A DNA stretch of 64,000 nucleotides from an uncultured Clostridium sp. GTDB lineage: Bacteria; Bacillota; Clostridia; TANB77; CAG-508. Made by a program: the position numbers and the translations under genes. Under the pieces are notes generated by a model, which worked only from the letters and a program-made list of their open reading frames with translations, was not told the origin of the DNA and did no database searches. Below, piece by piece: positions 13,775-47,681 of the stretch (positions within the stretch are counted from its first letter, which is position 1; the number at the start of each line of letters is the position of its first letter). The DNA is taken from positions 1 through 64,000 of the forward strand of contig CAOKMF010000006.1 of NCBI GenBank assembly GCA_948469655.1. The letters run 5' to 3'.

Positions 13775-13783
13775 CATTTTACT

Positions 13784-16792: not shown

Positions 16793-17994
16793 ATGGAAAA
16801 TTTAAGCTTATATCAGGATATACAATCTCGAACTGATGGCGATATATATATTGGAGTTGTAGGTCCTGTTAGAACTGGAAAATCGACATTTATAAAACGA
16901 TTTATGGACTTACTTGTTATTCCAAATATTGAAAATGAATACAAAAAGGAAAGAGCTCAAGACGAGTTACCTCAAAGTGCTGCTGGTCGTACTATTATGA
17001 CGACAGAGCCAAAATTTGTTCCAAATGAAGCCATCGAGATTACTTTAGGAGATAACATTCGCTTTAAAACAAGATTGGTTGACTGTGTAGGCTATTTAGT
17101 AAACAATGCCATCGGATATTTAGAAGACGACGTTCCAAGAATGGTAAAAACTCCTTGGTCTGATGAAGAAATCCCTTTTGAAACTGCAGCTGAGCTTGGT
17201 ACAACAAAAGTTATTTCCGAACATTCTACAATTGGAATTTTGGTTACAACTGATGGAAGTATCACAGATATTCCAAGAGAAGATTATATTAAAGCTGAGG
17301 AAAGAGTTGTGTCTGAACTTCAGGCTTTAAATAAACCTTTTGTAATTGTGTTAAATAGTGAAGACCCTTCTTCTTCATATACTCTTGAACTTGCAAGAAA
17401 ACTTGAAGAAAAATATGGTGTATCTGTACTTCCTACTGACTGTTCTAATTTATCTATAGATGATATTAATGACATGTTCGGTAAATTATTATACGAATTC
17501 CCAATAGAACAAATGAATATTTCTTTACCAAAATGGGTAGATAGTCTATCTGACGAACATTGGCTAAGAAAAGAAATATTTAATGAAATAAAAGAAGCAT
17601 TTAGTAATATTTCTGTTTTAAAGCAAATAAATGATAGTTTATCTAGTATAAAAAGTACTGAAATAATTGAAAGTTCTTCTCTTACAGAAATAAACCTTGG
17701 TAATGGTAATGTCAGCATTTCTATCACTTTAAAAGAGCATTTATTCTATCAGGTATTAACTGAAATGACAGGTGTTTCAGTAGCTGACGAGGGTGATTTG
17801 TTCTCTTGCCTTACTTCTCTTGCTGAGACTAAGAAAGAATATGATAAAATTGCATATGCTTTAGAAGAAGTTAAAGCTAAAGGTTATGGAATAGTTACTC
17901 CATCTGCTGAAGAATTGATTTTAGATGAGCCTGAAATGGTAAAACAAGGTTCTAGATATGGAGTTAAATTAAAAGCAAAAGCACCAAGTATACA
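16793..17994 (+). CDS. spoIVA: Stage IV sporulation protein A, 5' part (interrupted after codon 400)
   Basis: SpoIVA is an ATPase that polymerizes on the forespore surface and forms the basement layer of the spore coat. Start ATG 16793 follows GTGGAGG. Seen: Walker A GVVGPVRTGKSTFIKRF, ARAQDELPQSAAGRTIMTTE, LVDCVGY, EHSTIGILVTTDGS, NHWLR-like DEHWLRKE, ending KLKAKAPSI-H. At 17993 the sequence switches to the conjugative element and the native frame runs on for ~58 unrelated codons to 18166. The missing 92 codons are at 53434-53712. The exact match of KAxAPSIH|MIR to the family shows that the break is a clean insertion. Confidence 0.97.
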
Positions 17995-19605
17995 CATAGA
18001 AAGCCCGAAACAGATGCTTTTTTTATCCACCTCAGACAATTCTAAGTCGAAGTGGAATTTTATTTTTAGTCCTATATGGTTTTTATCTATCTGTGTAACT
18101 TTTATATTACTAATTTTATTATGTACAAACTCTTGTGTTATTTCAAAATTATCAAATTTAAAATAATCCTTTATTCTCTGATTGTTTTTTTCTATTTCTT
18201 GTCCTAACCTATCATTTTGAATATCTATTAATTTGCTTTTAAGCTCTACAATATTATTTTTATATTCAGCATTTAACTCATCAAATTCGCTCTCATCAAT
18301 TTTATTCAATGAATATAATTTCACAAGATTTTTTTTGCTTTCTTCTAACTCTTCTATTTGCTTTTCTATAATACTACAATCTACACTTGCTTTTCTATTC
18401 TTTTTGAGAATTTCATTGTTTACATTTATCATGTTTTTAATTATTTTATTCTTATTTTCAATCATTTCATCAAAAACATCTTTTAAGATCTGATTTAGTT
18501 CATTAGTTGTAAGATAAGTATTAGTTATACAACCCTTGTTGCCACTTCGAAGATATTCGGAGCATCCCCAATATTCTTCAGGAGATGTTGGTCTATATTT
18601 CCTTCGCCAATATAGTTTCCCATCATGACTACATATAAGTAAATTAGAATACATATAACGATTAGTCCAACCTGTTCCTTCACTTGTATATCTATTATGT
18701 CTTTTTTTTCGAATCTCATTGCATTTTTCCCACAATTCCTCATCTACAATCTGTGGCACAATATCCTCTGTTGTCTTATAATTAACCCATTCTTCTTTTG
18801 GCAGTTCTACTCGTTCTTTAGTTAAGAAATCTATTACTTCTGTTTTCTTGCCACAATAAAATCCTTTATATTTTGGATTTTCAAGTATTCCCTTTAACGT
18901 CGAATAACTAAGTGGCGTTCCACTTCTAGACATCATTCCCTCTTGTGCAAGTTGTTTGGATACACCTCTTATTCCAATATTACCTGTTGCATATAATTCA
19001 TAAGCCCTTTTGACTATTTTAGCTTCATTTTCGTTTATTACTAATGTACAGTTGTTTTTTTCATATCCCCATATAACATTATTCCCCAAGACTCTGCCTC
19101 TCTCTATTGACCTGTTAAACCCAAATTTAGTTCTTTCTGATAGTCTTCTACTTTCATCCTGTGCTAGTGATGCCATAATAGTTAGTCTTAGTTCTCCCTC
19201 TTGATCTAATGTATTTATGTTATCTAATTCAAAATATACTCCTTTTCCTCTTGCAAGTAAATCTCTTGTAATTTGTAAAGTGTCTAGTGTATTTCTTGCA
19301 AATCTACATACTTCCTTTGTTAGAATCAAATCATATTTATCATTTTGCCCATCAAATATCATATCGTTAAAATCATTCCTTTTCTTAGTAGATGTTCCTG
19401 TAATTCCATCGTCTGTATATCCCTGAACAAATGTCCATTTTGGATTTGATAATATTTTATTTTTGTAATACATATCTTGATTTTCTAGTGAATTCTTTTG
19501 TTGTTCTTTTTCTGTAGATACTCTTGCATAATATGTAACTCGTAGTGGTAAGTCATAAATCGTTTTGCCTGACATTAATGCTTTTCTAATTTCATAAATA
19601 TTCAT
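17884..19605 (-). CDS. Large serine recombinase A, reading across attL
   Basis: 573 aa in the integrated form, start MNIYEIRKALMSGKTIYDLP after GGAGG. Resolvase domain with the nucleophile Ser in YYARVSTEKEQQ, then the recombinase domain (GVSKQLAQEGMMSRSGTPLS), zinc ribbon (LLICSHDGKLYWRRK ... GCSEYLRSGNKGC) and coiled coil. The last 35 residues are encoded by the antisense of spoIVA beyond attL. In the excised circle the frame runs instead through attP into 53435-53319, giving a different 37-residue tail that ends before a terminator. The tail therefore reports integration state. Likely catalyses integration and excision with recombinase B. Confidence 0.93.
   Translation of the reverse strand: MNIYEIRKALMSGKTIYDLPLRVTYYARVSTEKEQQKNSLENQDMYYKNKILSNPKWTFVQGYTDDGITGTSTKKRNDFNDMIFDGQNDKYDLILTKEVCRFARNTLDTLQITRDLLARGKGVYFELDNINTLDQEGELRLTIMASLAQDESRRLSERTKFGFNRSIERGRVLGNNVIWGYEKNNCTLVINENEAKIVKRAYELYATGNIGIRGVSKQLAQEGMMSRSGTPLSYSTLKGILENPKYKGFYCGKKTEVIDFLTKERVELPKEEWVNYKTTEDIVPQIVDEELWEKCNEIRKKRHNRYTSEGTGWTNRYMYSNLLICSHDGKLYWRRKYRPTSPEEYWGCSEYLRSGNKGCITNTYLTTNELNQILKDVFDEMIENKNKIIKNMINVNNEILKKNRKASVDCSIIEKQIEELEESKKNLVKLYSLNKIDESEFDELNAEYKNNIVELKSKLIDIQNDRLGQEIEKNNQRIKDYFKFDNFEITQEFVHNKISNIKVTQIDKNHIGLKIKFHFDLELSEVDKKSICFGLSMCILGAFAFNLTPYLEPCFTISGSSKINSSADGVTIP
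17990..17998. other. attL, left junction of the element
   Basis: The spoIVA sequence ends AGTATACA here and the element begins CATAGAAAGCCC. The only bases needed at the crossover are CA (17993-17994), shared with 53434-53435. A 2-bp core is what large serine recombinases use. Confidence 0.85.
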
Positions 19606-19687
19606 ATAAACCTCCAAAATCTTTAAATATACTTGTGTTCTAACTCTGTTAGACCCTATTGTCAAGATGTTTGGAAGTTTTTGAAAA

Positions 19688-19709
19688 AGAAAAAAGTCCA
19701 TTAGGACTT
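19688..19709 (-). terminator. Intrinsic terminator after recombinase B
   Basis: On the minus strand AAAGTCC-TAAT-GGACTTT runs into T-rich sequence just past the recombinase B stop, separating it from recombinase A. Confidence 0.7.
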
Positions 19710-21341
19710 TCAACTTGCTTTTTTTTGCATATCTATGTATTCAATTACTTTTTGCCTTCTATATAATAAACTTACAGTGATTCCTACTTTTAAAATAATT
19801 TCTAATTTTGCCATTTCGTTATTATCTACTTTTTCAACTATTATTTTTTGTAAAATTGTATCTATAAGTTGGCTTGGCATTCCCTGATGAAATTCTATGT
19901 CTTTTTTAAAACTTTGCCTTAGCAGTTCTTTCTTTTCATTAAGAACGTTCATATCTCTTGCCTTTATTAAAATATTACATTCTTGTTCTAATCTTTCTAT
20001 TTTAGTATTATATACATCATTTTCTTCTTGGAATTCTTTTTCATCAATTAGGTCTGTTGTATATAACTTTATTAGCTTTTTCTTTTCTTTTTTTAATTCT
20101 TCAATTTTATTCCTTGTTCTATTGATATCATTTTCCGATGAACAATCTTGCATACAAGACATACTCTTTTCTAAAAGTTTCTCTATAAATTCCTCTTTAT
20201 GTATAAATAATTCATCAAATACTTCTTTCAAAATTTTATCTAATGTTTCTGTATATATATTTACATTATCAGTACACCCGTCTAGTCCTTTCTTTTTATA
20301 TAATGCACATTGCCAAAATTCTTTTCCTCTATTGGCTGATCTCCAATAGCTCTGTCCATCTTTTTTGCAGAATATTTTTCCTGAATATTTATATTTATTG
20401 TTATACCCTGATGACGAACTTTTTGCCCTTTCACTTCGTTCTTCGAATATTTCTTTGCACCTTTCCCACGTTTTATCATCAACTATTTGTGGCACGACAT
20501 CTTCTTTTGCTTTATATTCAACAATTTCGTCCTTCCCCAAATTTACTCTTTGCTTGGTCATGAAGTCTATTACTCTTGTTTTGTTCCCTGAATAAAACCC
20601 TTTATATTTAGGATTAGTCAAAATATTTTTTATTGTAGAATAAGCAAAAACTTCTCCTTTTCTTGTGTATATTCCTTCTTTTGCTAGTTCTTGACCTATT
20701 CTTCTTATTCCCACCTCTCCTGTTGCGTATATTTCATATATTCTTTTTACAATTTTTGCTTCTTCTTCGTTTAATTCAAGTTTACATTTGTTTTTTTCAT
20801 AGCCCCATATAGCATTGTTGCCTAAAACTCTTCCTTTTTCTATTGCTCTACTAAAGCCAAACTTTACTCTTTCTGATATTCTGCGACTTTCGTCTTGTGC
20901 TAGTGATGCCATTATAGTTAGTCTTAGTTCTCCTTCTTGTTCTAATGTATTAATATTATCTAGCTCAAAACAAACTCCTTTGCCTTTAGCGAGTAAATTT
21001 CTTGTAATTTGCAATGTGTCTAGTGTATTTCTTGCAAATCTGCATACTTCTTTTGTTAAGATCAAGTCATACATATCATTTAATCCATCACTTATCATAT
21101 CATTAAAATCATTTCTTTTTCTCGTCGATGTACCTGTTATTCCTCTGTCAGTATACCCATTAACTAGTGTCCAGTTAGGTTCTGCTAATATTTTATTTTT
21201 ATAATATGTATCTTGATTTTCTAGTGAATTTTTTTGTTCTTCTTTTTCGGTAGATACCCTTGCATAATATGTAACTCTTAATGGCAAATCATAAATTGTT
21301 TTACCTGACATTAGTTCTCTTCTTATGGTATATAGATCCAT
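19710..21341 (-). CDS. Large serine recombinase B
   Basis: 543 aa; ATG follows TAGGAGGA. A paralog of recombinase A: both begin with RxxLMSGKTIYDLPLRVTYY and share the catalytic ARVSTEKE. Recombinase domain (GIRRIGQELAKEGIYTRKGE), zinc ribbon with Cys pairs (IFCKKDGQSYW, CALYKKKGLDGC) and a C-terminal coiled coil (EELKKEKKKLIKLYTTDLID). Paired serine recombinases in one element may act as a heteromer or divide integration and excision. No in-frame CGG. Confidence 0.94.
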   Translation of the reverse strand: MDLYTIRRELMSGKTIYDLPLRVTYYARVSTEKEEQKNSLENQDTYYKNKILAEPNWTLVNGYTDRGITGTSTRKRNDFNDMISDGLNDMYDLILTKEVCRFARNTLDTLQITRNLLAKGKGVCFELDNINTLEQEGELRLTIMASLAQDESRRISERVKFGFSRAIEKGRVLGNNAIWGYEKNKCKLELNEEEAKIVKRIYEIYATGEVGIRRIGQELAKEGIYTRKGEVFAYSTIKNILTNPKYKGFYSGNKTRVIDFMTKQRVNLGKDEIVEYKAKEDVVPQIVDDKTWERCKEIFEERSERAKSSSSGYNNKYKYSGKIFCKKDGQSYWRSANRGKEFWQCALYKKKGLDGCTDNVNIYTETLDKILKEVFDELFIHKEEFIEKLLEKSMSCMQDCSSENDINRTRNKIEELKKEKKKLIKLYTTDLIDEKEFQEENDVYNTKIERLEQECNILIKARDMNVLNEKKELLRQSFKKDIEFHQGMPSQLIDTILQKIIVEKVDNNEMAKLEIILKVGITVSLLYRRQKVIEYIDMQKKAS

Positions 21342-21365
21342 ATTAGAATCCTCCTAAGTAAAATC

Positions 21366-21518
21366 TTATATACTATTTATAATGTAATCTTTCATTTTAT
21401 CATCTATAATGCCTTGTTCTCTTGCTGAATTAATCAAGTATATGCTTAATCTTTCAAGAATTGATTTTTCAAATTTTTCTATTATCTTATTATCAATCTT
21501 ATCAAATATTTTTTCCAT
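21366..21518 (-). CDS. Small ORF upstream of recombinase B
   Basis: 50 aa: MEKIFDKIDNKIIEKFEKSI then LERLSIYLINSAREQG and a short tail, predicted helical. RBS AGGTGG precedes the ATG, and it ends 25 nt before recombinase B, so it is co-transcribed. Its small size and position make it a candidate recombination directionality factor or recombinase partner, but I recognise no family. Confidence 0.55.
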   Translation of the reverse strand: MEKIFDKIDNKIIEKFEKSILERLSIYLINSAREQGIIDDKMKDYIINSI

Positions 21519-21576
21519 CTTGTCCACCTCTGTTAATGTATATTGACAAAACTCAAAAATATTACATTAATTTTTA

Positions 21577-22008
21577 TTACCATGCTATTTTCTTAGGCAC
21601 ATCATATCCTGCTGTTATATTCTTCTTTAAAACATAATTCTTTTTACTTTTATCATATTCATATACTGATGTATTCCAATCCCTATATGATCTATTGCTG
21701 ATACTGCTTGTTTTTGAAAGTTCTCTACTTGCTTGTTCATGTTGTGCTTTTAAATACAGGTACTCTAACTCACTATTATTACGTTTATTTTTTATATATT
21801 TTATAGTATCTATTTTATTATTTTTTTTGCTTTCTTGTTTTCTTCTTGCCTTTTCTTTTAGGTATCTTTCATCTTTCGAAACAGTTCGTGATACTATATA
21901 TTTAGAAATTTGTAATTTTTCTGCAATATCTTTTTGTTTCAATTTATCAATAAAATACATTTTTAATATTTGTTCATTCAATTTTAAATAACACTCTCTT
22001 TCGTGCAA
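21577..22008 (-). CDS. HTH DNA-binding protein
   Basis: 143 aa starting at TTG. Residues 8-45 form a helix-turn-helix (KQKDIAEKLQISKYIVSRTV) resembling sigma-region-4 or resolvase-type HTHs. A long basic linker follows, with a Trp/Tyr-rich C-terminal part (SYRDWNTSVYEYDKSKKNYV). It probably regulates the recombinase operon just downstream. No clear RBS is visible, so the start is uncertain. Confidence 0.6.
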   Translation of the reverse strand: MHERECYLKLNEQILKMYFIDKLKQKDIAEKLQISKYIVSRTVSKDERYLKEKARRKQESKKNNKIDTIKYIKNKRNNSELEYLYLKAQHEQASRELSKTSSISNRSYRDWNTSVYEYDKSKKNYVLKKNITAGYDVPKKIAW

Positions 22009-22057
22009 CTTTTTACTAACAGCTTTTGGGCATAAAGACTTAAATAGAGTGAATGCT

Positions 22058-22216
22058 CTATTTGATTTCTAAATTTTTCATTGCTTCTTTAAAGTTTTGT
22101 TTGTTTAGTGGTTTGACCTTTTTATATTTTCTCTTCTTTTTTAATCTCTCTATGATTTCTCTAACAAATACACCCAAAGCAAAAGAGATTAAAAAAACTA
22201 TAATATACTTTAGCAT
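22058..22216 (-). CDS. Small single-TM protein
   Basis: 52 aa: one hydrophobic segment (LKYIIVFLISFALGVFV) followed by a strongly basic tail (ERLKKKRKYKKVK). It starts right at the stop of the preceding gene (22218), with the RBS AAAGGAG inside that gene, so the two are translationally coupled. Function unknown. Confidence 0.55.
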   Translation of the reverse strand: MLKYIIVFLISFALGVFVREIIERLKKKRKYKKVKPLNKQNFKEAMKNLEIK

Positions 22217-22217
22217 T

Positions 22218-22473
22218 TTATTTTTTCTCCTTTGCCATGAATTTTGCTAGTTTTTTTACTTCACTATTTCCGAAATTTTTCATAAAACATTTTGATTTCA
22301 CTTTGAATTGTTTTATCGTTTATTTCTGCTTTGCTATGCTTCAGAGTTTTAAATGTCAATTGAGCATATGCTGTTATAAGTTCTAATTCTAGTGTATTAG
22401 TATCATTTGTTTTTTTCGTTTCTTTTACGTTTTTGGTTTCAACTATTGGCTTTAATTCATTTCTCGTGTCCAT
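22218..22473 (-). CDS. Hypothetical element protein with CGG +1 site
   Basis: 84 aa with a CGG +1 site at 22270-22272. Literal reading gives FRK and stop. The +1 reading gives FGNSEVKKLAKFMAKEKK and ends exactly where the next gene starts. Predicted alpha-helical, charged. It lies in the small-gene operon between the sigma-like factor and the recombinases, the position of Tn916-type regulatory genes. Function unknown. Confidence 0.6.
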
Positions 22474-22554
22474 AACATACTTCCTCCTTTTTTTAGTTTC
22501 TATATATTAAGAACACGACAAAAATTTCAAATGTCGGATTTTTGAAAAAATTTT

Positions 22555-22722
22555 TTAATTTTTTCTATTTCTACTCAAATTTCTAAATATCAAAAATATT
22601 ATTTCTTGTCTCAAATCCTCGTCTATTTTGCCACTTATATACGCATTTTTATCTATTAAATTTTCATAATCATTTATTATTTTTAGTATTTCTGAATCTG
22701 TTAAATCAAAATTATTAAACAT
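22555..22722 (-). CDS. Small helical protein next to sigma-like factor
   Basis: 55 aa: MFNNFDLTDSEILKIINDYE then NLIDKNAYISGKID and a basic end. It starts 4 nt after the sigma-like gene stop. In Tn916-family elements a sigma-like gene is paired with a small helical gene in just this way, so I infer a regulatory partner; the family was not identified. Confidence 0.5.
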   Translation of the reverse strand: MFNNFDLTDSEILKIINDYENLIDKNAYISGKIDEDLRQEIIFLIFRNLSRNRKN

Positions 22723-22725
22723 ATT

Positions 22726-23202
22726 TTAATCTTCTCCTTTTATTAATCCCTTTACAATTTTTTCTTGTGCTCGATTTCGTATTATAGATATTGTTTCTCT
22801 GTGAAGATGCATTATTTTTGCTGTTTCATTAATGGACTTCTGCTTTTTATATAAATAAAAAAGCACTTCTTTTTCTTTTAAAGATAATGCTTTTACAATA
22901 TTATATAACTTATGATCCGAGAATGTTCTTTCAAATTCTATTGCAGAATCAATCTCCTCTTGACATCTTTCTAAAACAGCATCAAGTACATTTTCACCCA
23001 TACTAGACATATTTTCGTCATTGAATATTACCATATCATTTAGATAATGACGATTTCTCTCAATATACTTATTTTTTGCGGTCATTACAATTCTCTTTAA
23101 ATATAATTTTTCTTCTTTTGATAATTCCTCCTTTAGATAGTCTTTTCTTTGCATTTTTAATTTCTCCAATCTTTTTAGATTAGACAAATTTCCGAAAGCC
23201 AA
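22726..23202 (-). CDS. Sigma-70-like regulatory factor
   Basis: About 158 aa (a TTG start is assumed). The C-terminal region is a sigma region 4-type HTH (SLKEKEVLFYLYKKQKSINE, TAKIMHLHRETISIIRNRAQ). The N-terminal part has helical region-2-like character. Conjugative transposons often carry such ECF-like regulators that switch on transfer genes. The start lies in AT-rich DNA without a clear RBS. Confidence 0.7.
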   Translation of the reverse strand: MAFGNLSNLKRLEKLKMQRKDYLKEELSKEEKLYLKRIVMTAKNKYIERNRHYLNDMVIFNDENMSSMGENVLDAVLERCQEEIDSAIEFERTFSDHKLYNIVKALSLKEKEVLFYLYKKQKSINETAKIMHLHRETISIIRNRAQEKIVKGLIKGED

Positions 23203-23541
23203 AGAAAGCTATTCGGTTATATATTTTTTTAATTAATTAGATTTTGTCATGTCATAATTTCCCTCCAAAAAAATAAAAGTCTGTTAATTAAAGTAAAATA
23301 TTTTCACATAATCTTTTGTACTTTTTTATTATCTCATGTGAATTAATATACTTTCTTTAACCTTACAGACCTTTGTCTTCACTAGAAATAATACAACTTT
23401 TTGTTTTGGTTGTCATAAAATACGCAAAAATAAGCATTAATATTAAAAAATACTCTAATTAAAAGATTTTTTCATGAAAATAGGAACTTCAAATTGCAGT
23501 TCCTATTTTATATTATTATTAAGTTTAAATATGTTTTACCC
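23203..23541. other. Non-coding promoter/terminator region
   Basis: About 340 bp without a credible gene. It holds a strong hairpin AAAATAGGAACT...AGTTCCTATTTT (23476-23508), the terminator of the gene ending at 23542. The rest is AT-rich and probably contains the sigma-like gene promoter. Confidence 0.55.
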
Positions 23542-23838
23542 TTAAAGATTATAATCCTTTAATATTTGTTCAGTCTTTTCTATTAGTTCATTATACTCTT
23601 TTACTGTCACTCCCTTTTCCTTTAATTTTTTATTTTGCTTTGTTATATTATTTTCATAATATAACATTAATTCATCATCTAATAAATCAAACTCATAACC
23701 AGTATAAAGTTTATCCATTATTTGTATGTTCAACTTTTCTAATACTTCAATATTTTTTTCTTTAAAATATTTTTTTACTTCAATAAACTCTTTCTGTTTA
23801 TACTCTTCGTGCCATTTTTCATAATTAAAATTTCTCAC
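23542..23838 (-). CDS. Hypothetical protein
   Basis: 98 aa, charged and mostly helical (MRNFNYEKWHEEYKQKEF, EVLEKLNIQIMDKLYTGYEF, KGVTVKEYNELIEKTEQIL). No TM, no Cys. Divergent from the XRE gene at 23967. No family recognised. Confidence 0.5.
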   Translation of the reverse strand: MRNFNYEKWHEEYKQKEFIEVKKYFKEKNIEVLEKLNIQIMDKLYTGYEFDLLDDELMLYYENNITKQNKKLKEKGVTVKEYNELIEKTEQILKDYNL

Positions 23839-23966
23839 TAAAATTCCCTCTTTCGTATTATTTTTTTAATTATAACACTATTTTATATTTTAGGCTAGTG
23901 AATTAGCCTATATTTTTTTAAAAAATTGATATACTATTTTCAAATTATTTTATAAAGGGGAATATT

Positions 23967-24212
23967 GTGAATATATCAGATGCAATTAATCAAAGAATTA
24001 GATATTTTATGCGTAAAAACAATTTAAACTCTCTATGGGATTTATACAAAACAACTGGTGTCCCTAAAGCTACCATAAATGCCCTATTAAGTTCTCGAAA
24101 AACTAGTGTACCTAAAATTACAACTCTTATACAAATATGCAGTGGTTTAAACACTAATTTAAAAGATTTTTTTAATGATGATATTTTTAAAGATATAGAT
24201 GATAATATATAA
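23967..24212 (+). CDS. Cro/CI-type repressor of the element
   Basis: 81 aa. Compact HTH (LNSLWDLYKTTGVPKATINA, TLIQICSGLNTNLKDFFNDD). RBS AAAGGGG precedes a GTG start. It is divergent from the gene at 23542 and upstream of the Spo0A-like gene, a typical position for an element repressor. Confidence 0.72.
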   Translation: MNISDAINQRIRYFMRKNNLNSLWDLYKTTGVPKATINALLSSRKTSVPKITTLIQICSGLNTNLKDFFNDDIFKDIDDNI

Positions 24213-24346
24213 AGTATACTTTATTTCGTTATACAATAAAACGAACTTGTCTTTTTTTCCCTTTTTTTGTCTTTCACTATTATTTTATTTTATTGTATGA
24301 TAAACTGATTAAGATTATTTTATACATTATATTTTAGGAGGCAATT

Positions 24347-25063
24347 ATGCTTAAAGTGATAATTGCTATTGATAATGATATTTTGTATAACAGCTTATCT
24401 CAAATTGCATTACAATCTAAAGAAAAAATCGAAGTCACAAAAGAATCTCCTGACAAATTACATTCTATAATTTGTAAAAACAAAAGGGAAAATTTGATAA
24501 TATTGGACTCTTTCACTTCAGTTACTTTTTGCCTAAATATACTGAAGAATTTAAATATAAATAAACAAAATGTCATTATCTTGGTAATTGATTCTAACTC
24601 AATGTCCAATATTTATAATAGTAAATTTCATTTTCCTAGAAATAGTAATTACGATTCTTCTTTAATTGATATTGTAAAACTAGTTTCAGATTCATTAAAA
24701 GTATCTTTAGAATTAGAACAAAATATTGACCAAATTTTATGGAAAATAGGATTAACTTCTTATACTAAAGGAACAACATATATAAAAGATGCAATTTTAC
24801 TTTCATATAATAATCGTAGATTACTACTTGAAACAAGAATGCTTATAAAACACGTTGCTACTAAAAATAATATTGAAAATGATAAAGTAGTACGTTCAGA
24901 CATGGACAGAGCTTTAAATAATGCAATTGACTTAATTAACACAGATACAATTTATAATATTTTTGGAGATGATTATGATGGTAGAAAAATTAGTTTAAGA
25001 TACTTTATTGATTTATGTATTCGATTTCTAGAAAAGCAAAGATATAGCTGTATAAAAAATTAA
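24347..25063 (+). CDS. Spo0A-like regulator (degenerate receiver plus Spo0A-type C-terminal domain)
   Basis: 238 aa; RBS TAGGAGG. Residues 1-115 look like a degenerate receiver (VIIAIDNDILYNSL, NLIILDSFTS keeps an Asp in the phospho-site position). Residues 125-235 align by eye with the Spo0A DNA-binding domain: IDQILWKIGLTSYTKGTTYI against chromosomal [18 protein letters not shown], then DKVVRSDMDRALNNAIDLIN against the [18 protein letters not shown] helix. An element inserted in a sporulation gene carrying a Spo0A-type regulator suggests that it reads or alters the sporulation decision. The match is by eye and needs a profile search. Confidence 0.65.
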   Translation: MLKVIIAIDNDILYNSLSQIALQSKEKIEVTKESPDKLHSIICKNKRENLIILDSFTSVTFCLNILKNLNINKQNVIILVIDSNSMSNIYNSKFHFPRNSNYDSSLIDIVKLVSDSLKVSLELEQNIDQILWKIGLTSYTKGTTYIKDAILLSYNNRRLLLETRMLIKHVATKNNIENDKVVRSDMDRALNNAIDLINTDTIYNIFGDDYDGRKISLRYFIDLCIRFLEKQRYSCIKN

Positions 25064-25233
25064 ATTAGGAACTACCTTCTTAGTTAGTAGCTCCCTCATA
25101 ATAAATTATTTGTATAAGAATAACTGCCACATTCTTCTTATACTATATATTAAAACACTTATGTGTATTAATATCTATTTTATGATTTATTATACTGCAA
25201 GAAACAGATAATACACAATATTAACTGTATTTT

Positions 25234-25518
25234 CTAAAACTTATTATAGTCTTTATTCCAACTTGATTTTATTTCTTGTTCTATTTCTGTTAATGTTATA
25301 TTTTTTTCAATGTATTCATCTCTGCATTTATCAATACATAAACATATATTTTGTATAGCACAATATGTATAAAATTCAATAGACTTTTCTTTTGCCAATA
25401 CAAATGGTTGTTTTAAATAAAAAAGCTCTAGACTTAATGTATTTAAATCTGTTAATTTTTTTAATTCAAATTTATTAACTTTATTATTTACTGTCTCTAA
25501 TATTTCTCTATAATCCAC
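25234..25518 (-). CDS. Hypothetical protein
   Basis: 94 aa, helical (MDYREILETVNNKVNKFELK, YTYCAIQNICLCIDKCRDEY). Two close Cys-containing turns. Convergent with the Spo0A-like gene; a small hairpin (25066-25094) lies between. No family recognised. Confidence 0.5.
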   Translation of the reverse strand: MDYREILETVNNKVNKFELKKLTDLNTLSLELFYLKQPFVLAKEKSIEFYTYCAIQNICLCIDKCRDEYIEKNITLTEIEQEIKSSWNKDYNKF

Positions 25519-25814
25519 TTTCTATCACACTCCTAAATTACTATAGTTCTCTAATCTTATTTAATTATTATTCTTTATGATAAATTATTTGTATTAGATT
25601 AACTTTCAAATTCTTCTTGTATTATATATTAGATGCTTACGTGCATCAATATCCCTATAAATATCTATTTTATTGTTTATTATAACATAAAAATAAATAA
25701 CACTCAATACAGTTGACAAAATAATATTAATATAACCTTAGTATGTATTTAAAGAACTACTGCAATCTAAAAGTATTATTGATATAATAAATAATATTAT
25801 ATCAGGGAGATAAA

Positions 25815-26092
25815 TAAAGAATGAGAATTATTTACTAAAAGATATTATTAATGTTGCAAATAAACTAACAGGAAAACCAATACTAGAAAAACAATCATTA
25901 GAAAGAATTATTAGTCCATTAACATTTTACCAGAAAGTTTTGCTAATAATTACCTTTATATGTTGTTTAATCAATTTAATAAAAGTCTATTGCTTGATAT
26001 AATACTCCTACTAACAATATTTGTGGGTGGATTTGCATTTCATATATTATGGGAATATCCCATATATAGTCATTCTAATTCCTATCGCTTCT
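25815..26092 (+). pseudogene. Remnant of a membrane protein C-terminus
   Basis: The plus strand shows ENYLLKDIINVANKLTGK and ISPLTFYQKVLLIITFICCL, then after a frame change FVGGFAFHILWEYPIYSHS. The last segment resembles the C-terminal end (GGFLFHLLWE) of integral membrane glycosyltransferase-like proteins of Firmicutes. No start, several stops, no rescue by CGG. From 25519 to 26497 nothing else coding is seen. Confidence 0.4.
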
Positions 26093-26404
26093 ATATGTAG
26101 TCAAAAATATTTTCAATTTTATAAAAATAAAGTATAAAAAATGTCTTTTGATAATAATGTAAAACAGCTATATTGTGGCATATATCTTTTCAAAATGGTA
26201 TATAGACGGTCAAAGTTTTTTATCTTACTACAAAAGTACTTCAATAATTTTTTATGTCCGTTATGATTTATATTGATAGTTGCTTGCTTTTTATTATATT
26301 TCTATTTTTCTTTTTTATATACTTTTTTAACTGTTTTATGTATTTATAAATTTATTTAAATATTTTTACCTTTTATTCTTATAAAATCAAAAAATATAAT
26401 AATT

Positions 26405-26433
26405 CGGAGTTACTTAATAATCAAGTAACTCCG
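26405..26433. terminator. Strong hairpin terminator
   Basis: CGGAGTTACTT-AATAATC-AAGTAACTCCG, 65 bp past the stop of the secreted-protein gene at 26498. Confidence 0.65.
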
Positions 26434-26497
26434 AGCATCAGGAGAGTAATTTATTGTTTATGTTTTAAAACTACGAAACTAAGTATTCAAGTATAAC

Positions 26498-27088
26498 TTA
26501 GTTGTAACCTCTTGTCGATACGACCATTTTTACAGACACATCATTGTATGCTGAAATTGAGTCATATTCAAAATGGAATGTCCGTCCGGTCGCCGCCATG
26601 ATGTAAAAGTAGTCCGAATTATACGTCTGTTTACCTTGGTGAACATCGCCAGTAGCACCAATCTGACCCATCGAGCCCATCAGCTTTATCTGCGCTCCAA
26701 TTGCCGGATTGCTTGCCGATATAAGCGTTGCGCCCCATTTTACGCGCATAACATCATCCGCAACAGACCAATCCTGACCTCTCATCGTAGATCTAAAAGA
26801 CGCTGTACCTAATGGAAAGTCGGGCCGATCGTTCGGAATGGTCACGTACAGAGACAACGGATCTGCAGACATATCACATGTGAGAACATAGATGTCTTCC
26901 CCTTCTGCTTCCGTTTCAGTCATTCCTAAAATTTCCAATGCTTCTTCGCGGGACAAATCCGATTCCTCAATCGGTACCAGATCCGGAGCCTCGCTCTGCG
27001 ACTCCTCGGCTGCAAAAGCAACAGACGGAATTGACATTGTCACACACATTACCATTGTCAAAAATAAGCTAAAAAAACGTTTTTTCAT
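26498..27088 (-). CDS. Secreted protein of foreign base composition, with CGG as Arg
   Basis: 196 aa. Clear signal peptide (MKKRFFSLFLTMVMCVTMSI ... AFAAEE), then an acidic linker and a beta-rich domain (TGRTFHFEYDSISAYNDVSV). It is visibly more GC-rich than its neighbours. Two in-frame CGG codons (26825-26827 in NDRPDF and 26582-26584 in TGRTFHF) fit Arg, and the frame continues uninterrupted. Under the +1 rule it would terminate shortly after residue ~88. RBS AGGAGG is present. It therefore looks like recent cargo from a standard-code donor that is not adapted to this host. Confidence 0.75.
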   Translation of the reverse strand: MKKRFFSLFLTMVMCVTMSIPSVAFAAEESQSEAPDLVPIEESDLSREEALEILGMTETEAEGEDIYVLTCDMSADPLSLYVTIPNDRPDFPLGTASFRSTMRGQDWSVADDVMRVKWGATLISASNPAIGAQIKLMGSMGQIGATGDVHQGKQTYNSDYFYIMAATGRTFHFEYDSISAYNDVSVKMVVSTRGYN

Positions 27089-27319
27089 GAAAAGTCCTCC
27101 TTATGATGTTTGTAGCTCTCCTGACTTCTCCATCAAGCTAACTATTCAGTTCGCTCTCTTGGAAAACGCGAAACAAAATTGCAGTTTTACATCTTATTTT
27201 ATACCTAGTTTACGTAGATTCAGTAAAATGACAAAAAAAGACAAAAAAACAATAAATTTTTTAATACAATATTTCACTGTTTAAATTAATTTGAATTTTG
27301 TTGCACATTTATAGTTCTC

Positions 27320-28028
27320 TTAATCAACAACTTCTATTGATTTTATCTCTAATGAATATGAGCTTACGTCCAAATTTTTATACTTAACTATCACTCTTTT
27401 ACCGGACTGATTCAACCTGCTGTAAATTACCGATTATCTCTGTTTCATCAGTAATGCTAAACTTCAAAACAAATGGCAGTTTATAAATTTTATCAGAATA
27501 TTCATATCTTATATATAATTCATCAGGTTCGTTAGGTAATGAATAGTATTCTGCAACATAGGCTAATGTATTTTCATTTCTTAATGTCTCTTTCTTCATA
27601 TCTTCATAATCTTTTGCTTTCAATACGATAATTGGATTATTTTTTGTATCAAAGTAGTCATCTTCAAGCATATTATACGTTATCAAATCGCCTTTACAAA
27701 TTAATATATCCCCATAATGAATATAATTTGTATTATATTCTTCAGATGTGTAATAATCTATACATTTTTGCTGTTTATTTCTAATTATGGCTCTTGTATA
27801 TTCTGGCATTTCAATTCCACTTTCGCCAAAGTGTTCACCATTATATATATAAAACCTATTTTCGTTGTCAAGTTCCATCCTACCTTGTATTGTTATATCT
27901 TTTTTGATGTTTGATATGTTATTTGATTTATTGTTATTCATATTGATAATTATATTAAAAATTATCAATCCAAGTAGTACTATTGTTGATAAAATAACAC
28001 AAATTATGATAATACTTTTTTTCCCCAT
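27320..28028 (-). CDS. Membrane-anchored extracytoplasmic protein with CGG +1 site
   Basis: 235 aa with a CGG +1 site at 27402-27404. Literal reading ends VESVR-stop. The +1 reading adds VGKRVIVKYKNLDVSSYSLE and IKSIEVVD. N-terminal TM segment (SIIIICVILSTIVLLGLIIF) then a beta-rich domain with Tyr-rich strands. RBS AAAGGAG upstream. No family recognised; probably cargo on the cell surface. Confidence 0.6.
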
Positions 28029-28271
28029 ATAAATACATCTCCTTTCTTTAAATTTTTATACTATCTTTATATATACTATAGTTATTTGTCTATTTCTTTA
28101 TTTTGTGCCTTTATTATATCTTAAAAATATATTATATGTCAATACAATATATTTTTACTCTTTTACTCTTCAAGCTACTTTTACTCAATTTTATACTTTT
28201 CTTTATATGTAAAAATCAGAATTTATAAATATAAAATAAAAGGTACAGAATCCCTACACCTTTTACCCATT

Positions 28272-28580
28272 TTACATTAGGCATTGCAATATAAATCTAA
28301 CAATATCTTTTACTCCTGTTTTATAATACTGTTCATAATATATGCTTTGCTCAATATTACATTTGTCACTGTAATTAGAAAGCACTTCTACTATTAATTT
28401 TAGCTTTTGTTTATCAGTTATATTTACTGTTAATTCTGCCATTAATTTTGCATATGCTTCTTCTCTCTTTTCTTTTGTAGTTTCTAATTCTTTATTAAAA
28501 TCGGCTGTCTTTATTACTCCTTTGTCCTCACGATACAACCAAAGAACTTGCAAAGTTTCATCATCTTTTAAATTTTCCAT
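28272..28580 (-). CDS. Hypothetical protein
   Basis: 102 aa, helical (MENLKDDETLQVLWLYREDK, LMAELTVNITDKQKLKLIVE, YYEQYYKTGVKDIVRFILQC). RBS GGAGG. No in-frame CGG, no recognised family. Confidence 0.5.
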   Translation of the reverse strand: MENLKDDETLQVLWLYREDKGVIKTADFNKELETTKEKREEAYAKLMAELTVNITDKQKLKLIVEVLSNYSDKCNIEQSIYYEQYYKTGVKDIVRFILQCLM

Positions 28581-28599
28581 ATCTACACTTTATCCTCCT

Positions 28600-29054
28600 C
28601 TTCCACAGTGTTTGTGTCATGCTAACTCTGTTTATGGATAATGTCAACCTTTTTCACAAAAATTTTAAAAGTTCTTTAAACCCTGAATTTTAGAGAGAGC
28701 AAAATGGCGTAGTATCCCCTTATGTTCAAAAATAATACACCATTTAATTAATAAACCCCTCATTCCGTCGCTTCGCTGATGGCAGTCTAGTATGCAGAAT
28801 CTCTTCTACTGCAGATGCTGTTTTTTAACTTTGTGCATCCTTGCCCACACTTTTTACATCTACATATCCTCTAACAAGTTTTGCCTCCTGAAACTCTTTT
28901 TTTATTGTGAGTATATGTTACAAAATCTCACTTACGCATTTTGTATAAATAGGCTGTTTATACTAATACGAATGAATTTTACTGCATTGGCTCATAACAC
29001 CTGTCACTTTTATTTTTACAACGAGTTTACGGCATCTCTCGTTTTTTGCACGAA
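28600..29054. other. Non-coding segment with small hairpins
   Basis: About 450 bp with no convincing gene. It contains hairpins such as GTATAAA...TTTATAC (28945-28965) and AACGAG...CTCGTT (29019-29043) and is slightly more GC-rich than flanking spacers. It could hold an RNA gene or a scar of a deleted gene. Confidence 0.35.
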
Positions 29055-29097
29055 AAAACACCTATAAGATTTTGTGTAAACTTATAGGTGTTTTTTT
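29055..29097. terminator. Bidirectional terminator
   Basis: AAAACACCTATAAG-ATTTTGTGTAAA-CTTATAGGTGTTTTTTT, 15 nt past the stop of the ArdC-like gene. Confidence 0.8.
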
Positions 29098-29111
29098 ACT
29101 GATATTTAAAT

Positions 29112-29867
29112 TTATTCAAATTCTTCTTCATCTTCTTTTTTATTTTCGTTAGCATTTATCTTTTCTTGTGATTTAAAATCGCTTACAAAGTAATTAGTAA
29201 ATTTTTGCATATACTTTAAACTTTCTTTTAATGTTTTATCTTTTTTGTCCTTTGCCCAATTGCAAATATCATCGAAATTATAATTTCTTGTATTAAGTTT
29301 TAAATTTTTAGTTACAGCAAATACTGCTCCTGTTACTTCTATTTGAACTTGTTTGTTATATTCTTCTATATTTTTATTTTTAGAAGAATCATTCTGTCTT
29401 GTATTATTTTTTATATCAATTATTATTTTTTCTAGCTTGTCTCTTGTACTTTCATCAGCTTTGGTTTCTATACCTCTTCTTTCACACATACCTTTTAGTA
29501 TGTTTTCAATATATTCCTTCGATTGTGCTTTATTCTGCTTTATACTTTTATCTGTTTGACTTATATCATATACTTCATCTAATTTAAATTCTAATTCTCC
29601 ATTTACTTTCTTTATAATTTTTAATGGCTTTTCTCCGGCTTTAATATTAATTCCTTTAGTTTTAAACTTTTCTTTACTTGCTATTAAATTTAATTCATCT
29701 CGCTGTTTTCTTAATAGAAGTACATTATTATAACTTACATTATATAATTTTGATAAAGTAGTTAAGAAGTCTTTCATATTATCTTCATTTGCAAATGTAT
29801 CTTTCGCCAATTGGTTTGTACTTTTTAATAGTCCTTGTATTTCTTCGTCTATTTTAATCATCTCCAT
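29112..29867 (-). CDS. ArdC-like antirestriction/ssDNA-binding protein with EEEFE tail
   Basis: 251 aa. Residues ~35-85 resemble the ArdC N-terminal (DUF1738) domain: SKLYNVSYNNVLLLRKQRDE then KTKGINIKAGEKPLKIIKK. Residues ~180-240 resemble the degenerate zincin-like part of ArdC/LtrC proteins (QIEVTGAVFAVTKNLKLNTR, FDDICNWAKDKKDKTLKESL). It ends KKEDEEEFE, the tail shared by other element proteins. ArdC of plasmid pSa is related to the TraC primase region transported during conjugation, so a secretion-linked tail fits. A terminator follows directly, so here the tail cannot be serving as an RBS for a next gene. Confidence 0.6.
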   Translation of the reverse strand: MEMIKIDEEIQGLLKSTNQLAKDTFANEDNMKDFLTTLSKLYNVSYNNVLLLRKQRDELNLIASKEKFKTKGINIKAGEKPLKIIKKVNGELEFKLDEVYDISQTDKSIKQNKAQSKEYIENILKGMCERRGIETKADESTRDKLEKIIIDIKNNTRQNDSSKNKNIEEYNKQVQIEVTGAVFAVTKNLKLNTRNYNFDDICNWAKDKKDKTLKESLKYMQKFTNYFVSDFKSQEKINANENKKEDEEEFE

Positions 29868-29886
29868 TTCATTATATTATTTATAC

Positions 29887-29906
29887 GAGAGCTCTTTCGA
29901 GCTCCC
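29887..29906 (-). terminator. Intrinsic terminator of the adhesin gene
   Basis: GGGAGCTC-GAAA-GAGCTCTC just past the adhesin stop codon on the minus strand. Confidence 0.65.
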
Positions 29907-29910
29907 TATT

Positions 29911-32900
29911 CTAGAAACCTGTTCTTGGCAATTTCTTCAAATCAAATTTTTTCTTATACACCTTAGTTGTATGATCGTCCTCATCCCATACAAGATACCC
30001 CTTATTGTATCCTTCAATTCTTGTTTTATTTGTAAATGTATCATCATTTTTTACATCATTGTGTACTTTTACAAATATATATGGGTTGACAACTGATTCG
30101 AATCCTACATCTACTGTTCCAAAATCTGCTTTAAATTCCGTAATAACTTCGCCATCTTCTAATGCTATATTAGAAAAGTCAATATAATTATTTACTTGTG
30201 TATTTAGATTTTCTGCTAATAATCTATAATCATTTAAATTTGTTTTATAGTAGACATTATAATTTAGGTCTTGATTATATGTTCCTGTTATTAGCTTTTG
30301 CATTTTTACATAGTCTGTTGGTAAATAATCATACCAAGTAAAATTACTAAGTGCTACATTCCCTGTGTTTTTAATATGGAAATTGTAACGTATCTCTTCA
30401 TTAGCTGTTGTTTGAATAATTCCTGTTTTTTCTATATCAACATCAGGAATTATTGGCTCATCTATCATTGTTACCTTTTGAATTTCTCCAGTATTTTCTA
30501 CTTTAAATTTTATGTCTGTTGCCTTAAGAAAACCGTTTGGTGCAATTTCTTCTCTTAATGTATAAATTTTTCCTGCTGTCAAGCCTTCAATTTTATGTGT
30601 TTTTCCTCCTGATACCCATGTATCTATACAGTTATCATCTTCGTCTGATATAGATAATGTTGCACCTTCGATTTCATTTTCTCCTGTAATAGCTTTTTTT
30701 GATATTTCTATTAAAGTTGTCTGATTTTCGATATTTAAATTTATAACATATTCTTTTGTTGTTGTATCCTTCTGTTCAAATATAACTTCATATTTTGTAT
30801 TATCCAGTACCGCTCCGTCTATTGTTGCTACTTCTTTTAGTGAATATTTTCCCATCCAAATGTTATCAATTGTTAGAGTTGCATCTGAGTTTAAGTTATA
30901 TTTTCCTATCACTGTCCCTTTGCTATATACAATGCTTCCATCGCTATAATCAATAATATCCTCCTCAGCCGTAATTTCAAATGCTATTTTAGTAAAATCT
31001 ATTTCATCAATTAGTGATATATCTACATCTTCTCTTAAATTTACCTTTTTTGTTAGTTTTAAAGTTCCTTTAGGTTGTGTGTTCTTTGCTACAACTGTTA
31101 TCCATGCATCATAATCATCATCGTATTCTAATGTTTCATTGTTATTATTAACTTCAAAAACCAATTCTTCGTCTAATTCAGTAAATCCAACTGGAACTTT
31201 AGTTTCTTTTAATTTTAATATTCCTGCTTCAACTTTTGTTTCAGTTACAACGCTTCCTGTACTATCAGTTTTCCAAGTATCAAAATATTTATTTCCAACC
31301 TTACATTTTATTTTTTCCCAATTACTTGTTTCTTCATTTAGTCTATATAATTCAAATTCTGCATTTGAATAAGTTACAAGTTTTCCTGTTATTTTATCTT
31401 GTTTTTGCAATTTTAGATATGATTTAAAAGGTGTATCATTTTCAACCAATTCCAATATAGGTGTTCTACTATCTTGATTTACTTTAAAATAAAACTCTTT
31501 AACTTTGTTTATTTCTGATGAAGGTGTATAAGTCTCATTTCCGAGTATATTCTCCATAAGCTAACAAGTTTGATATTGCATGCCCATTTGTACCGTGTTC
31601 TAATTACTGCATATTCGTCATCTGCAAATTCTTCGATGTGTTTTAATGCTTCTTCAAAACTTCCATAATGTTTAACATATTTTGATAGTATTAGTGTAAA
31701 TTCAGCATTTTCAACCACTTGTGCAGTATCGTTTGTGTCTGTTGTTACTTTTATTATTTCTACTGGTGCTTTTTTTACTGTATTTGCAACAGTTCCTTCT
31801 ATTTCAATTTCTGCTGTTGTACTATCTTTATATAAGAATTCGTAATGATATATAGTTTCGTCCTTTGTGTAACCTTCAGCTACTCTTGTTTCTTTTGTAT
31901 AAAATTTTCCGAAGTGGCAAACCTGTAAGTTTGTTTCCTTTTATATTCAATTCAGCTCGTGTTTCTGTATTAACTATTCTAATACTTGCAACTCCATAAC
32001 TATTAAATAAAAATGTCGCTACTTCGTCATCTTTTGAAAAATATTTTACTGTTCCTTTTGCATTATATATATCTTCTTCTGCAAATAACGTATATCCTGT
32101 CCCATTCAATGTTGCATCTCCGTGATGGCTTTCATTTATTATTCTGTCTTTATTTCCTGTTTCTCTATCAACTTTTGTTAACGTTAAACTTCCGTGTTGG
32201 CTCTTTGTCTGCTATTGTTTTATTTGTAGTTTTTCCTGCTTCTATTTCTACTTTATATGATTTCGTGTCCAATAGATATCCGTATGGTGCTATCCTTTCA
32301 GAAATTGTATAGATGCCAGCTTTTAAATTTTCAACTAATATTTTCCCATTTCTTACTGTAACATCTTCATTATATGCTTGTCCATTTGTAATATTAAATA
32401 CTGCTCCATCAATTAATTCCCCATTTGAATTTAATTTTTCTAGCTCTAATTTGCCTTTTGCTTCTATCTCAAAATTAAGTCTCAATGTTATTGGGTCATT
32501 ATAGTTTAGTGAATATAACTGATCTTGAACATCACTTGCAAAAGAAAAATATATTGTAGTGTCATCATCTTGTGTTCCTTCTTTAATTAGTCCCCAACTT
32601 TCAAACATAGAATCTGTTATTTTATAGCTTTCTAAATTGCAGTCCTCACTTACTGTTATCGTCATTGTATTTTCGCCTTTGTTGTGCTGTAATCTAATTC
32701 CTTCTATTGTTTTATCCATAGTATTGTAACTTGAAAATACACCATTCGTATCTCTCAACATTTGTGCTTCTCCTGTTTTTAAGGTTACTGTCGTTCCATC
32801 AAATGATGGTCTTTTCTTCATTTGTGCTATTTTATTATTTACATCATTTTTAAATGAAATATATTCATTTTGAACACCTGCATCTACAAACGTTGCACTG

Positions 32901-33414
32901 CTTTGCCCCAGTACTTCCCAAATGGCTTGCTGAGTAAAAGCATATTGCTTTAGTGCGTCATTTGCTAAAACTCCATTTGAGCCATAGCTACCTCTGCTTT
33001 GATACCATCCGCAAAAAGCGACTTTAGCTGCTTGAAGTAATCTTTCGTCAGAAGGCTTACCATATGTTCCTTGGTAATTAGTTCCGTGTCTGAAAATGAA
33101 CACCGGTTCTCTGCACAGAAAACTATAAGTCCATCTCCGTTACTAAAATTCCAATTTTGACCTTTTAAAAGTATTCTTCTTGTTACAATTCCATTTTCTC
33201 CTCCATTTGCTGGATCTGTTGTTTTAATTCTAGTTGCATATTGACGTGCAACAAATGTGTCGCTTCCGCTTCCACTTATTGTCTGATTTGCTCCACATAC
33301 AACTGGCTGTATTATTCCAAATATTGTTATAAATAATATAATCATTGTATAAATTTTCTTTAATTTTTTTGTTATTCTTAACATTTTTCCTCCTTCTCCA
33401 TGAAAAAAGAACAA
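29911..33414 (-). CDS. Cna-B-domain LPXTG adhesin with six CGG +1 sites
   Basis: 1165 aa with CGG +1 sites at 33103-33105, 33084-33086, 32192-32194, 31909-31911, 31593-31595 and 31541-31543. Signal peptide (TMIILFITIFGIIQPVVCGA); thioester-like N-terminal region (FCAENGVHFQTGTNYQGTYG, then QYAFTQQAIWEVLG); several Cna-B/SpaA-like domains (KLELEKLNSNGELIDGAVFN, GIYTISERIAPYGYLLDTKS, TLKLTKKVNLRED, SISDEDDNCIDTWVSGG). It ends KKFDLKKLPRTGF and stops. The usual hydrophobic anchor after LPXTG is absent. The first two CGG sites restore the segment between signal peptide and adhesive domain. Probably anchored by the sortase at 34130, for host or mating-cell contact. Confidence 0.85.
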
Positions 33415-33443
33415 GTTATGAACTTGCTCTCATTTATGCTTAT

Positions 33444-34077
33444 TTAATTTTCTTCTATTCTAAAATAAAAATCTAGTGTTATCATGCCACATTTAGGGCA
33501 ATTCCAGTTTTGGTAACCGTAAGGACAATTTGCATCATATTCATCGTCATCTACCTCGTTGTTTACTAATTTATCACTCCATAATTTTTGTAGAGATTTA
33601 TAATATTTTACTGCTTCCTCTTTCGTATTAAACCATTTCTTTGAATTTCCGACTGGCATTTGATGTTTATCATTTGTGCATTGTTCTACTTTATTTCCCT
33701 TTGTTTGTTCTACTTCTTGCTTTGTCTCCTGCACCTCTGATTTTGTAACAACTGGTTGTTTCTCCTTCTTTTGTTCTTGTACTTTATTTTCTTGTGTCTT
33801 TTGCTCTCCTTTTTTTGTTTCTCCGATTACTTGTTATTTCATTATTGTTAGGTATTATTTCTTTTGATACTTCTTCTTGAGAATCTGTGTGCTCCTCTAC
33901 TTCATCATTATTATTTTGTTCTTCATTTTGTAACTCACTATGTTGTTCGCCTTCATTATTATTTTGAATTGCCTGTGCCATTTCTTTCGAATTACTTCTT
34001 GTTACAAAAAAAACTACTAAAGATGCTAACACTAAAAGCAATATTATTATATATGTTTTCTTCATAATAAAAATCAA
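33444..34077 (-). CDS. Membrane-anchored charged protein with C-terminal zinc-ribbon-like end
   Basis: 210 aa with a CGG +1 site at 33823-33825 joining two frames. N-terminal TM (TYIIILLLVLASLVVFFV), long Glu/Gln/Asn-rich stalk, then a folded end (WFNTKEEAVKYYKSLQKLWS, ANCPYGYQNWNCPKCGMITL) with four Cys. The +1 joint reads SN-GETKKGEQKTQENK. Located between adhesin and sortase. Function unknown, possibly a surface stalk protein. Confidence 0.6.
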
Positions 34078-34129
34078 CTCCTCTTTTTGTTTCTATTTTA
34101 ACTCTGTTTAGTCTTATTTACAAGTGCTT

Positions 34130-34678: not shown

Positions 34679-34687
34679 AGCTTCCTC

Positions 34688-36374: not shown

Positions 36375-36391
36375 ATTTTCTTTTTCCTTTC

Positions 36392-37099: not shown

Positions 37100-37105
37100 C
37101 CCTCC

Positions 37106-37303
37106 TTAATCTAGCCATTCCTCTTCGTATGGCACATTGTAAATTTTATTGCCTGATTCAAAATATGTAATATTATCTGCTTTATTATTATATTGTTTTT
37201 TCCCTAGTTTCCAAAATTTGTTATTACATACTACTAATACAATTAGTCCAAATAGAACAACAAAGTAAAAAACTAACTCTTTTTTATTATGTTTTGTATT
37301 CAC
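37106..37303 (-). CDS. Small single-TM protein
   Basis: 65 aa; TM segment LVFYFVVLFGLIVLVVC followed by a soluble acidic end (YNVPYEEEWLD). Overlaps the next upstream gene by 4 nt (ATGA-type coupling). Function unknown. Confidence 0.5.
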   Translation of the reverse strand: MNTKHNKKELVFYFVVLFGLIVLVVCNNKFWKLGKKQYNNKADNITYFESGNKIYNVPYEEEWLD

Positions 37304-37758: not shown

Positions 37759-37772
37759 ATTTATATTCCTTT

Positions 37773-42312: not shown

Positions 42313-42338
42313 TATTTCTATTATACTTCTTAATGTTT

Positions 42339-43185: not shown

Positions 43186-43211
43186 CTTTTATCACCTCTA
43201 CTTACTTTTCT

Positions 43212-47680: not shown

Positions 47681-47681
47681 T

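Follow-up and report, generated by a model that had tools for sequence, protein, structure and literature searches.

A Spo0A-like protein as the probable dedicated switch of the recombination operon in a conjugative element inserted in spoIVA

Introduction

Why would a conjugative element that interrupts a sporulation gene carry its own relative of Spo0A? The DNA analysed here, a stretch of 64 kb from an uncultured Clostridium sp. that we call the window, raises this question at positions 24347..25063 (+), an open reading frame of 238 aa whose ATG start is preceded by a good ribosome-binding site, AGGAGG. The original prediction, made from the sequence of the window, described the product as a Spo0A-type regulator and proposed that it could sense the sporulation programme, trigger excision or transfer, or hold off sporulation by competing for 0A boxes. 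At issue is whether such a protein acts on the sporulation of its host or on the element itself.

Results

The element and its insertion site

We found spoIVA to be split in the window, with its ATPase and middle domains read from 16778 and its C-terminal domain at 53482-53709; the domains of the gene stand on both sides of the inserted DNA, which bears out the claim that the element blocks spoIVA. The insertion spans 35 kb (17996..53436, ends approximate to ~2 bp), and its relaxase, coupling protein, recombinases and defined ends identify it as an integrative conjugative element. As read from the sequence, the junctions at 17996 and 53436 fit a two-base crossover (AT), and joining the flanks across the element leaves the spoIVA frame uninterrupted (..PSIH-MIRADITTEV..). 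Profile matches revealed a large serine recombinase (19710..21341, -) and a second one, a listed open reading frame reaching the element's left end (17884..19713, -). The conjugation genes comprise a MobP3-type relaxase (45841..47079, -; E 1.2e-35, 123.7 bits against a cut-off of 150), a VirD4/TraG coupling protein, TrbL and a TraG-type ATPase. An element from a different genus (locus L144, genome G165) is also inserted in spoIVA, and its recombinases are 69-77% identical. The window element further holds an S-adenosylmethionine synthetase gene within its right end (51988-53103, -) and a SpaA-type surface protein (29911-31557, -) with the C-terminus KKLPRTGF, apparently sortase-anchored, homologues of which occur in other elements of the set.

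A Spo0A_C protein that is not a Spo0A orthologue

The original prediction named a profile search and a structure prediction as its checks, and both came out in its favour. The Pfam profile Spo0A_C (PF08769) matched aa 127-224 of the 238-aa protein (24725..25018, +) with E 1.3e-7 and 32 bits, above the gathering score of 25 bits, and phmmer recovered the solved Spo0A DNA-binding domain (1lq1/1fc3, E 3e-5 and 3e-4). In the AlphaFold model, the C-terminal part reached a pLDDT of mostly 80-94 and its fold paired with the Spo0A-DNA structure 1lq1 at Z 16.1 over 106 residues; 1lq1 and 1fc3 both stood at Z 16.1, the rows that followed were unrelated at ~Z 6, and a Foldseek search with the predicted fold gave E 8.6e-5. 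Profile, solved-structure search and predicted fold thus agree on the Spo0A-type C-terminal domain that had been seen by eye. The score against the Spo0A equivalog TIGR02875 was 38.8 bits, below the cut-off of 200. In the Pfam search, the chromosomal Spo0A of the window, taken for comparison (13779..14603, -), scored 153 bits and has a Response_reg match as well. The 238-aa protein is a member of the Spo0A_C family and not a Spo0A orthologue.

The degenerate receiver that had been predicted in front of this domain was indeed observed (24347..24700, +). No Pfam match to Response_reg was obtained for the protein at E<=1, and the receiver-like beta-alpha order of the N-terminal half was modelled at a pLDDT of about 55-74, below the C-terminal confidence. 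When the protein was aligned with Spo0A and the relatives, the phospho-acceptor Asp was the only receiver position kept throughout; from the functional set (acidic pair, Asp, T/S, Lys), the window protein retains Asp54 (24506-24508, +) and the second acid of the pair, and has lost the first acid, the T/S and the Lys. Because the receiver is so degenerate, control of the Spo0A-like protein by the host phosphorelay appears unlikely.

The recognition helix has changed as well. By alignment and model it occupies residues 179-196 (24881..24934, +), where VVRSDMDRALNN stands in place of the canonical Spo0A sequence; two alignments position the helix indel differently, which leaves the residue pairing uncertain, and no alignment restores the canonical sequence. 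The residues of this helix that we take to touch the bases are those presumed from the 1lq1 work. A candidate reading in which the canonical Arg is kept was rejected, since it rested on a gap in the phmmer alignment and the multiple alignment moves the indel.

Distribution of the family

Proteins of this kind are widespread in the order. The genome of the window (1.39 Mb draft, 80% complete) encodes four Spo0A_C proteins, at least one is present in 56 of 57 relatives, many of which have two to eight, and most genomes sampled in the order carry additional non-Spo0A members, many of them on mobile elements. The subfamily of the window protein (50-60% identity over most of the length) was found in roughly 24 of 390 genomes of the family. 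These are spread over many genera, and no other sampled genome from the genus of the window has a copy, a pattern that a mobile gene would be expected to show. A contig search for this subfamily returned twelve named loci; each came from an uncultured bacterium, and Clostridia was the label of most. The class-wide PF08769 search yielded, among the matches listed, only strong, canonical copies. Plasmid homologues of the 238-aa protein were absent at E 0.01, the phage search gave no close relative and one weak match of canonical type, and IMG/VR scans with four different Spo0A-like proteins returned no match.

Several further arrangements were noted. A second or third Spo0A-related protein lies near the first in several of the elements at L127, L137, L138, L140 and L142. 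Spo0A-like proteins of another large group (cluster 22, about 207-248 aa) are often encoded divergently from a small secreted protein (about 135-144 aa) with an FSFKGT...GLSGGS motif, a pair present in seven loci (L002 1495-2711, G000:C3; L072, L075, L078, L082, L083 and L085). At L004 1842-3032(-), an ORF that reads as a radical SAM N-terminal part with a receiver-like domain behind it adjoins another Spo0A-like gene of the same genome.

A conserved module opposite the recombinase operon

Divergent from the Spo0A-like gene, the relatives have an operon led by a homologue of the window's sigma-70-like regulator (22726..23202, -; 158 aa with a region 4 HTH, sigma70-ECF superfamily E 3.3e-6), its conserved divergent partner. 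This gene is followed by homologues of a conserved 69-aa protein (22264..22473, -) and of a 143-aa HTH/sigma-region-4-like protein (21577..22008, -), the latter recognised from profiles as well as from its homologues, and then, where the neighbourhood was readable, by serine recombinases. A Spo0A_C gene is directly divergent at 18 of 21 sigma-like homologue loci, the three exceptions being the window, where the Spo0A-like gene lies 1.1 kb off, a truncated locus and one other. In the wider set, a sigma-like gene was found divergently within 1.5 kb of 47 of the 88 unique divergent Spo0A_C genes, a count made at a loose threshold.

The window is atypical in that two extra control-region genes separate the iteron array described below from the Spo0A-like gene. 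One encodes a 98-aa protein (23542..23838, -) whose homologues adjoin the same module in L137 and L138, and the other a Cro/CI-type HTH_26 protein (23967..24212, +; E 1.9e-7) for which homologues were also found. A sigma-A-like promoter of the Spo0A-like gene itself, TTCACT-17-TATGAT, was recognised by eye at 24273..24301 (+). The position opposite the recombinase-leading operon is conserved, in the window at 1.1 kb with two genes between. For the proposal that the protein could trigger excision or transfer, this position lends plausibility to the part concerning excision, which the regulator would be placed to control through the adjoining recombinase operon.

A 10-bp iteron array at the recombinase promoter

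Upstream of the sigma-like gene we observed four 10-bp iterons, AAAATACGCA AAAATAAGCA TTAATATTAA AAAATACTCT (23417..23456, +), as a candidate operator; in the repeat-lag test, lag 10 was the best among lags 6-24, with a score reached by 2 of 500 shuffles. The array abuts a putative promoter of the sigma-like/recombinase operon (23388..23416, -; -35 ATGACA 23411-23416, 17 bp, -10 TATTAT 23388-23393), which was read by eye and has a layout common to the relatives. The intergenic regions of the relatives likewise carry, by eye, a sigma-A-like promoter close to ATGACA-17-TATRAT on the strand of the sigma-like gene, with two to four 10-bp iterons (AAAATCAGCA, AAAATCGGAA, AAAATACGCA) immediately upstream of its -35. 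Compared with these, the window array is weaker, having two good units and two degenerate ones, and it has stayed beside the recombinase promoter despite its distance from the Spo0A-like gene. Such a tandem pair of iterons has a single occurrence in the 64 kb of the window (23417-23456) and, across 22 related loci, is found essentially nowhere but in this intergenic region. Both in the window (23360-23390) and in the relatives, the presumed leader of the sigma-like transcript includes a conserved ACAGACTCTTGTCC block together with an inverted partner, AGTCTGTAAAA.

The 10-bp period is associated with the Spo0A-like genes. The best upstream repeat lag was exactly 10 in 41 of 78 divergent Spo0A-like genes, as against 4 of 36 canonical spo0A genes and 10 of 150 background regions, these being counts over sequences that are not independent of one another. 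With divergent intergenic regions as stricter controls, lag 10 was best in 46/88 versus 6/39 and an array of z>3 was present in 56/88 versus 5/39; among the control regions with strong 10-bp arrays, two are near Spo0A-like genes and carry AAATAGGAAA units, which weakens the control. At least one array with z>3 was detected in 17 of 23 protein clusters, and no significant array was seen for over one third of the Spo0A-like genes in divergent arrangement.

The AAATAGGAAA units were seen as iterons at the divergent promoters of large secreted repeat proteins (L093 4230-4536 and L092 3366-3778). These sites sit 2-4 kb from a Spo0A-like gene and resemble the iterons of L093's own Spo0A-like gene; they are possibly a second target of the Spo0A-like protein.

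The iteron unit varies with the protein cluster (AAATCRGMA; GGGCGAAAAA; TTGTATAGAA; GGAATTTTTTA). Over 28 modules, iteron similarity correlated with the identity of the Spo0A-like protein when that of the sigma-like protein was held (partial Mantel 0.44, p 0.0005), versus -0.02 (p 0.58) for the sigma-like protein with the Spo0A-like protein held. Consistently, mean iteron similarity was 0.75 between modules with Spo0A-like proteins of the same cluster and sigma-like proteins <30% identical, and 0.48 where the clusters differed and the sigma-like proteins were >50% identical. The case from co-variation is strong without being conclusive, since the iterons, which are AT-rich, have a gene on either side, and hitch-hiking with the nearer one could yield part of the correlation. 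Other proteins of the element, such as the HTH_26 protein and the 143-aa HTH protein, could also bind the array.

These data bear on the view that the gene is a decaying, functionless duplicate of spo0A, the array being the site of another protein, an origin or a transfer site. The degenerate receiver would fit such decay, as would the stop codons that break the copies of some relatives. It is nevertheless very improbable, as most copies of the subfamily are intact with many invariant positions across 13 sequences, the gene keeps a near-constant position opposite the sigma-like gene, and the array co-varies with its product.

Host 0A boxes and the link to sporulation

Spo0A of Bacillus and of Clostridioides binds the core sequence TGTCGAA (PMC3485338). 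Exact copies were present in the whole window at 14267, 51097 (within an ORF) and 63826, and none of them lies near the recombinase or transfer promoters of the element, where the original prediction had suggested looking for 0A boxes. With the recognition helix replaced and the core missing from these promoters, the proposal that the protein holds off sporulation by competing for 0A boxes found no support.

The broader idea that the protein manipulates host sporulation, competing or pairing with host Spo0A to delay or trigger it, draws on the presence of the Spo0A_C domain, on the location of the element in spoIVA and on phages of the gut virome that carry a truncated spo0A with the effector domain only (PMC10294663), homologues that are discussed in such terms. 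In one phage example (MT838085), we observed a near-canonical helix, VERAIRNAIE, and, by eye, an upstream region without an iteron array. The helix of the window protein departs from the canonical sequence that the host Spo0A keeps and the phage copy nearly keeps, and the element's own promoters in the window lack a 0A box. Moreover, the putative operator is local and unique in the window, and pairing would have to use a receiver region that is in part among the least conserved and least confidently modelled portions of the protein. Manipulation of the host is thus improbable, and a role within the element is the preferred reading.

A different picture emerged from the relatives. Most close relatives carry a perfect 0A box, TTTTGTCGAA, next to the array and ~90-115 bp before the start codon of the Spo0A-like gene, at a position that is near-constant in the subfamily though much of the region has diverged, and TGTCGAA occurs within 400 bp upstream of 32 of 78 divergent Spo0A-like genes versus 84 of 1093 background ORFs. 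It is conceivable, then, that the module is above all a sensor of the host programme, in which Spo0A~P on a box with the clostridial Spo0A core (PMC3485338) times transfer or excision to the entry into sporulation and the Spo0A-like protein forms a second arm. Against this, the box is absent from the window copy, from the other spoIVA element (L144) and from L154, is TGTCAAA in L149, and did not appear in modules L163-L178, which are more distant; the Spo0A-like protein might equally bind it. We consider sensing as the main function rather unlikely, even if, for the relatives, it is more likely that the box is read by host Spo0A than by the Spo0A-like protein, because the host helix is invariant and the helices of the divergent proteins are varied. 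The proposal that the protein senses the sporulation programme accordingly stays plausible only for relatives with a perfect box, which the window copy lacks. Since the box is missing there, the window element bears no sign in its sequence of direct coupling to sporulation, and its link to sporulation, as far as the sequence goes, is limited to the origin of the protein and the insertion site.

Discussion

Taken together, these results suggest, with a probability that we put at about 0.62, that the window protein arose by duplication and re-specification of Spo0A and works as a dedicated switch of the element's excision/recombination operon. In the mechanism that we propose, subunits of the Spo0A-like protein would bind the iterons side by side along one face of the helix, an arrangement for which Spo0A-type domains are suited because the 10-bp phase is close to one helical turn. 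In the 1lq1 work, the Spo0A DNA-binding domains reportedly occupy tandem 0A boxes that are spaced by about one turn of the helix. Once bound, the protein would activate the promoter and thereby the expression of the sigma-like factor, the further HTH proteins and the recombinases. The position just upstream of the -35 is an activator site at sigma-A promoters, as at Spo0A-activated promoters, and the placement of the array directly upstream of the -35 is our reason for favouring activation over repression; the protein is thus probably an activator of the recombinase operon. Switching would proceed without phosphorylation by the host phosphorelay and could be set by the level of the Spo0A-like protein or by a partner. 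In most close relatives, host Spo0A~P may feed in as a second input, because a perfect 0A box flanks the array.

More tentatively, and at slightly less than even odds, this order of gut Clostridia may have seen Spo0A radiate into dozens of paralogues, many of them on conjugative elements and each with a co-evolving 10-bp iterated operator, much as with the immunity repressors of phages; some elements would have a host 0A box that couples mobility to the sporulation decision. If confirmed, this would mean that mobile elements have on many occasions captured a developmental master regulator and re-specified it as a switch of their own, and the matching operators would make its DNA code readable by comparison. 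Counts of sporulation genes that are based on the Spo0A_C domain would then overstate Spo0A, and the Spo0A-like switch would provide a testable connection of sporulation with conjugative transfer.

In the open-licence literature, we found no account of conjugative elements with Spo0A-like regulators, nor of iterated operators for such proteins, and several known systems invite comparison. With Spo0A (TIGR02875), the window protein shares the two-domain layout, the C-terminal fold (Z 16.1 to 1lq1) and the phospho-acceptor Asp, whereas its receiver is degenerate, its linker is shorter, its recognition helix is replaced and its proposed operators are 10-bp iterons rather than TGTCGAA. Tn916-type elements contain the divergent pair orf7/orf9, in which a Cro/CI-type protein stands opposite a sigma-70-like gene. 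In both cases, the control end of a conjugative element has a sigma-70-like gene with a regulator gene in divergent orientation to it; in contrast to the Cro/CI-type protein of Tn916, the divergent gene of the window is Spo0A-derived, and its sigma-like gene leads to serine recombinases. The phage effector domains (PMC10294663, MT838085) are likewise Spo0A_C on mobile DNA, but they come without a receiver, whereas the window protein retains a remnant of the receiver and its helix is altered. Finally, the skin-type elements in sigK of B. subtilis and C. difficile (PMC5025042) are serine-recombinase elements that interrupt a mother-cell sporulation gene, and excision of the window element would likewise rejoin its host gene, spoIVA, in frame. 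Unlike the skin elements as portrayed there, the window element is conjugative (relaxase, VirD4, TrbL), and a programmed, skin-like excision from spoIVA may be worth considering.
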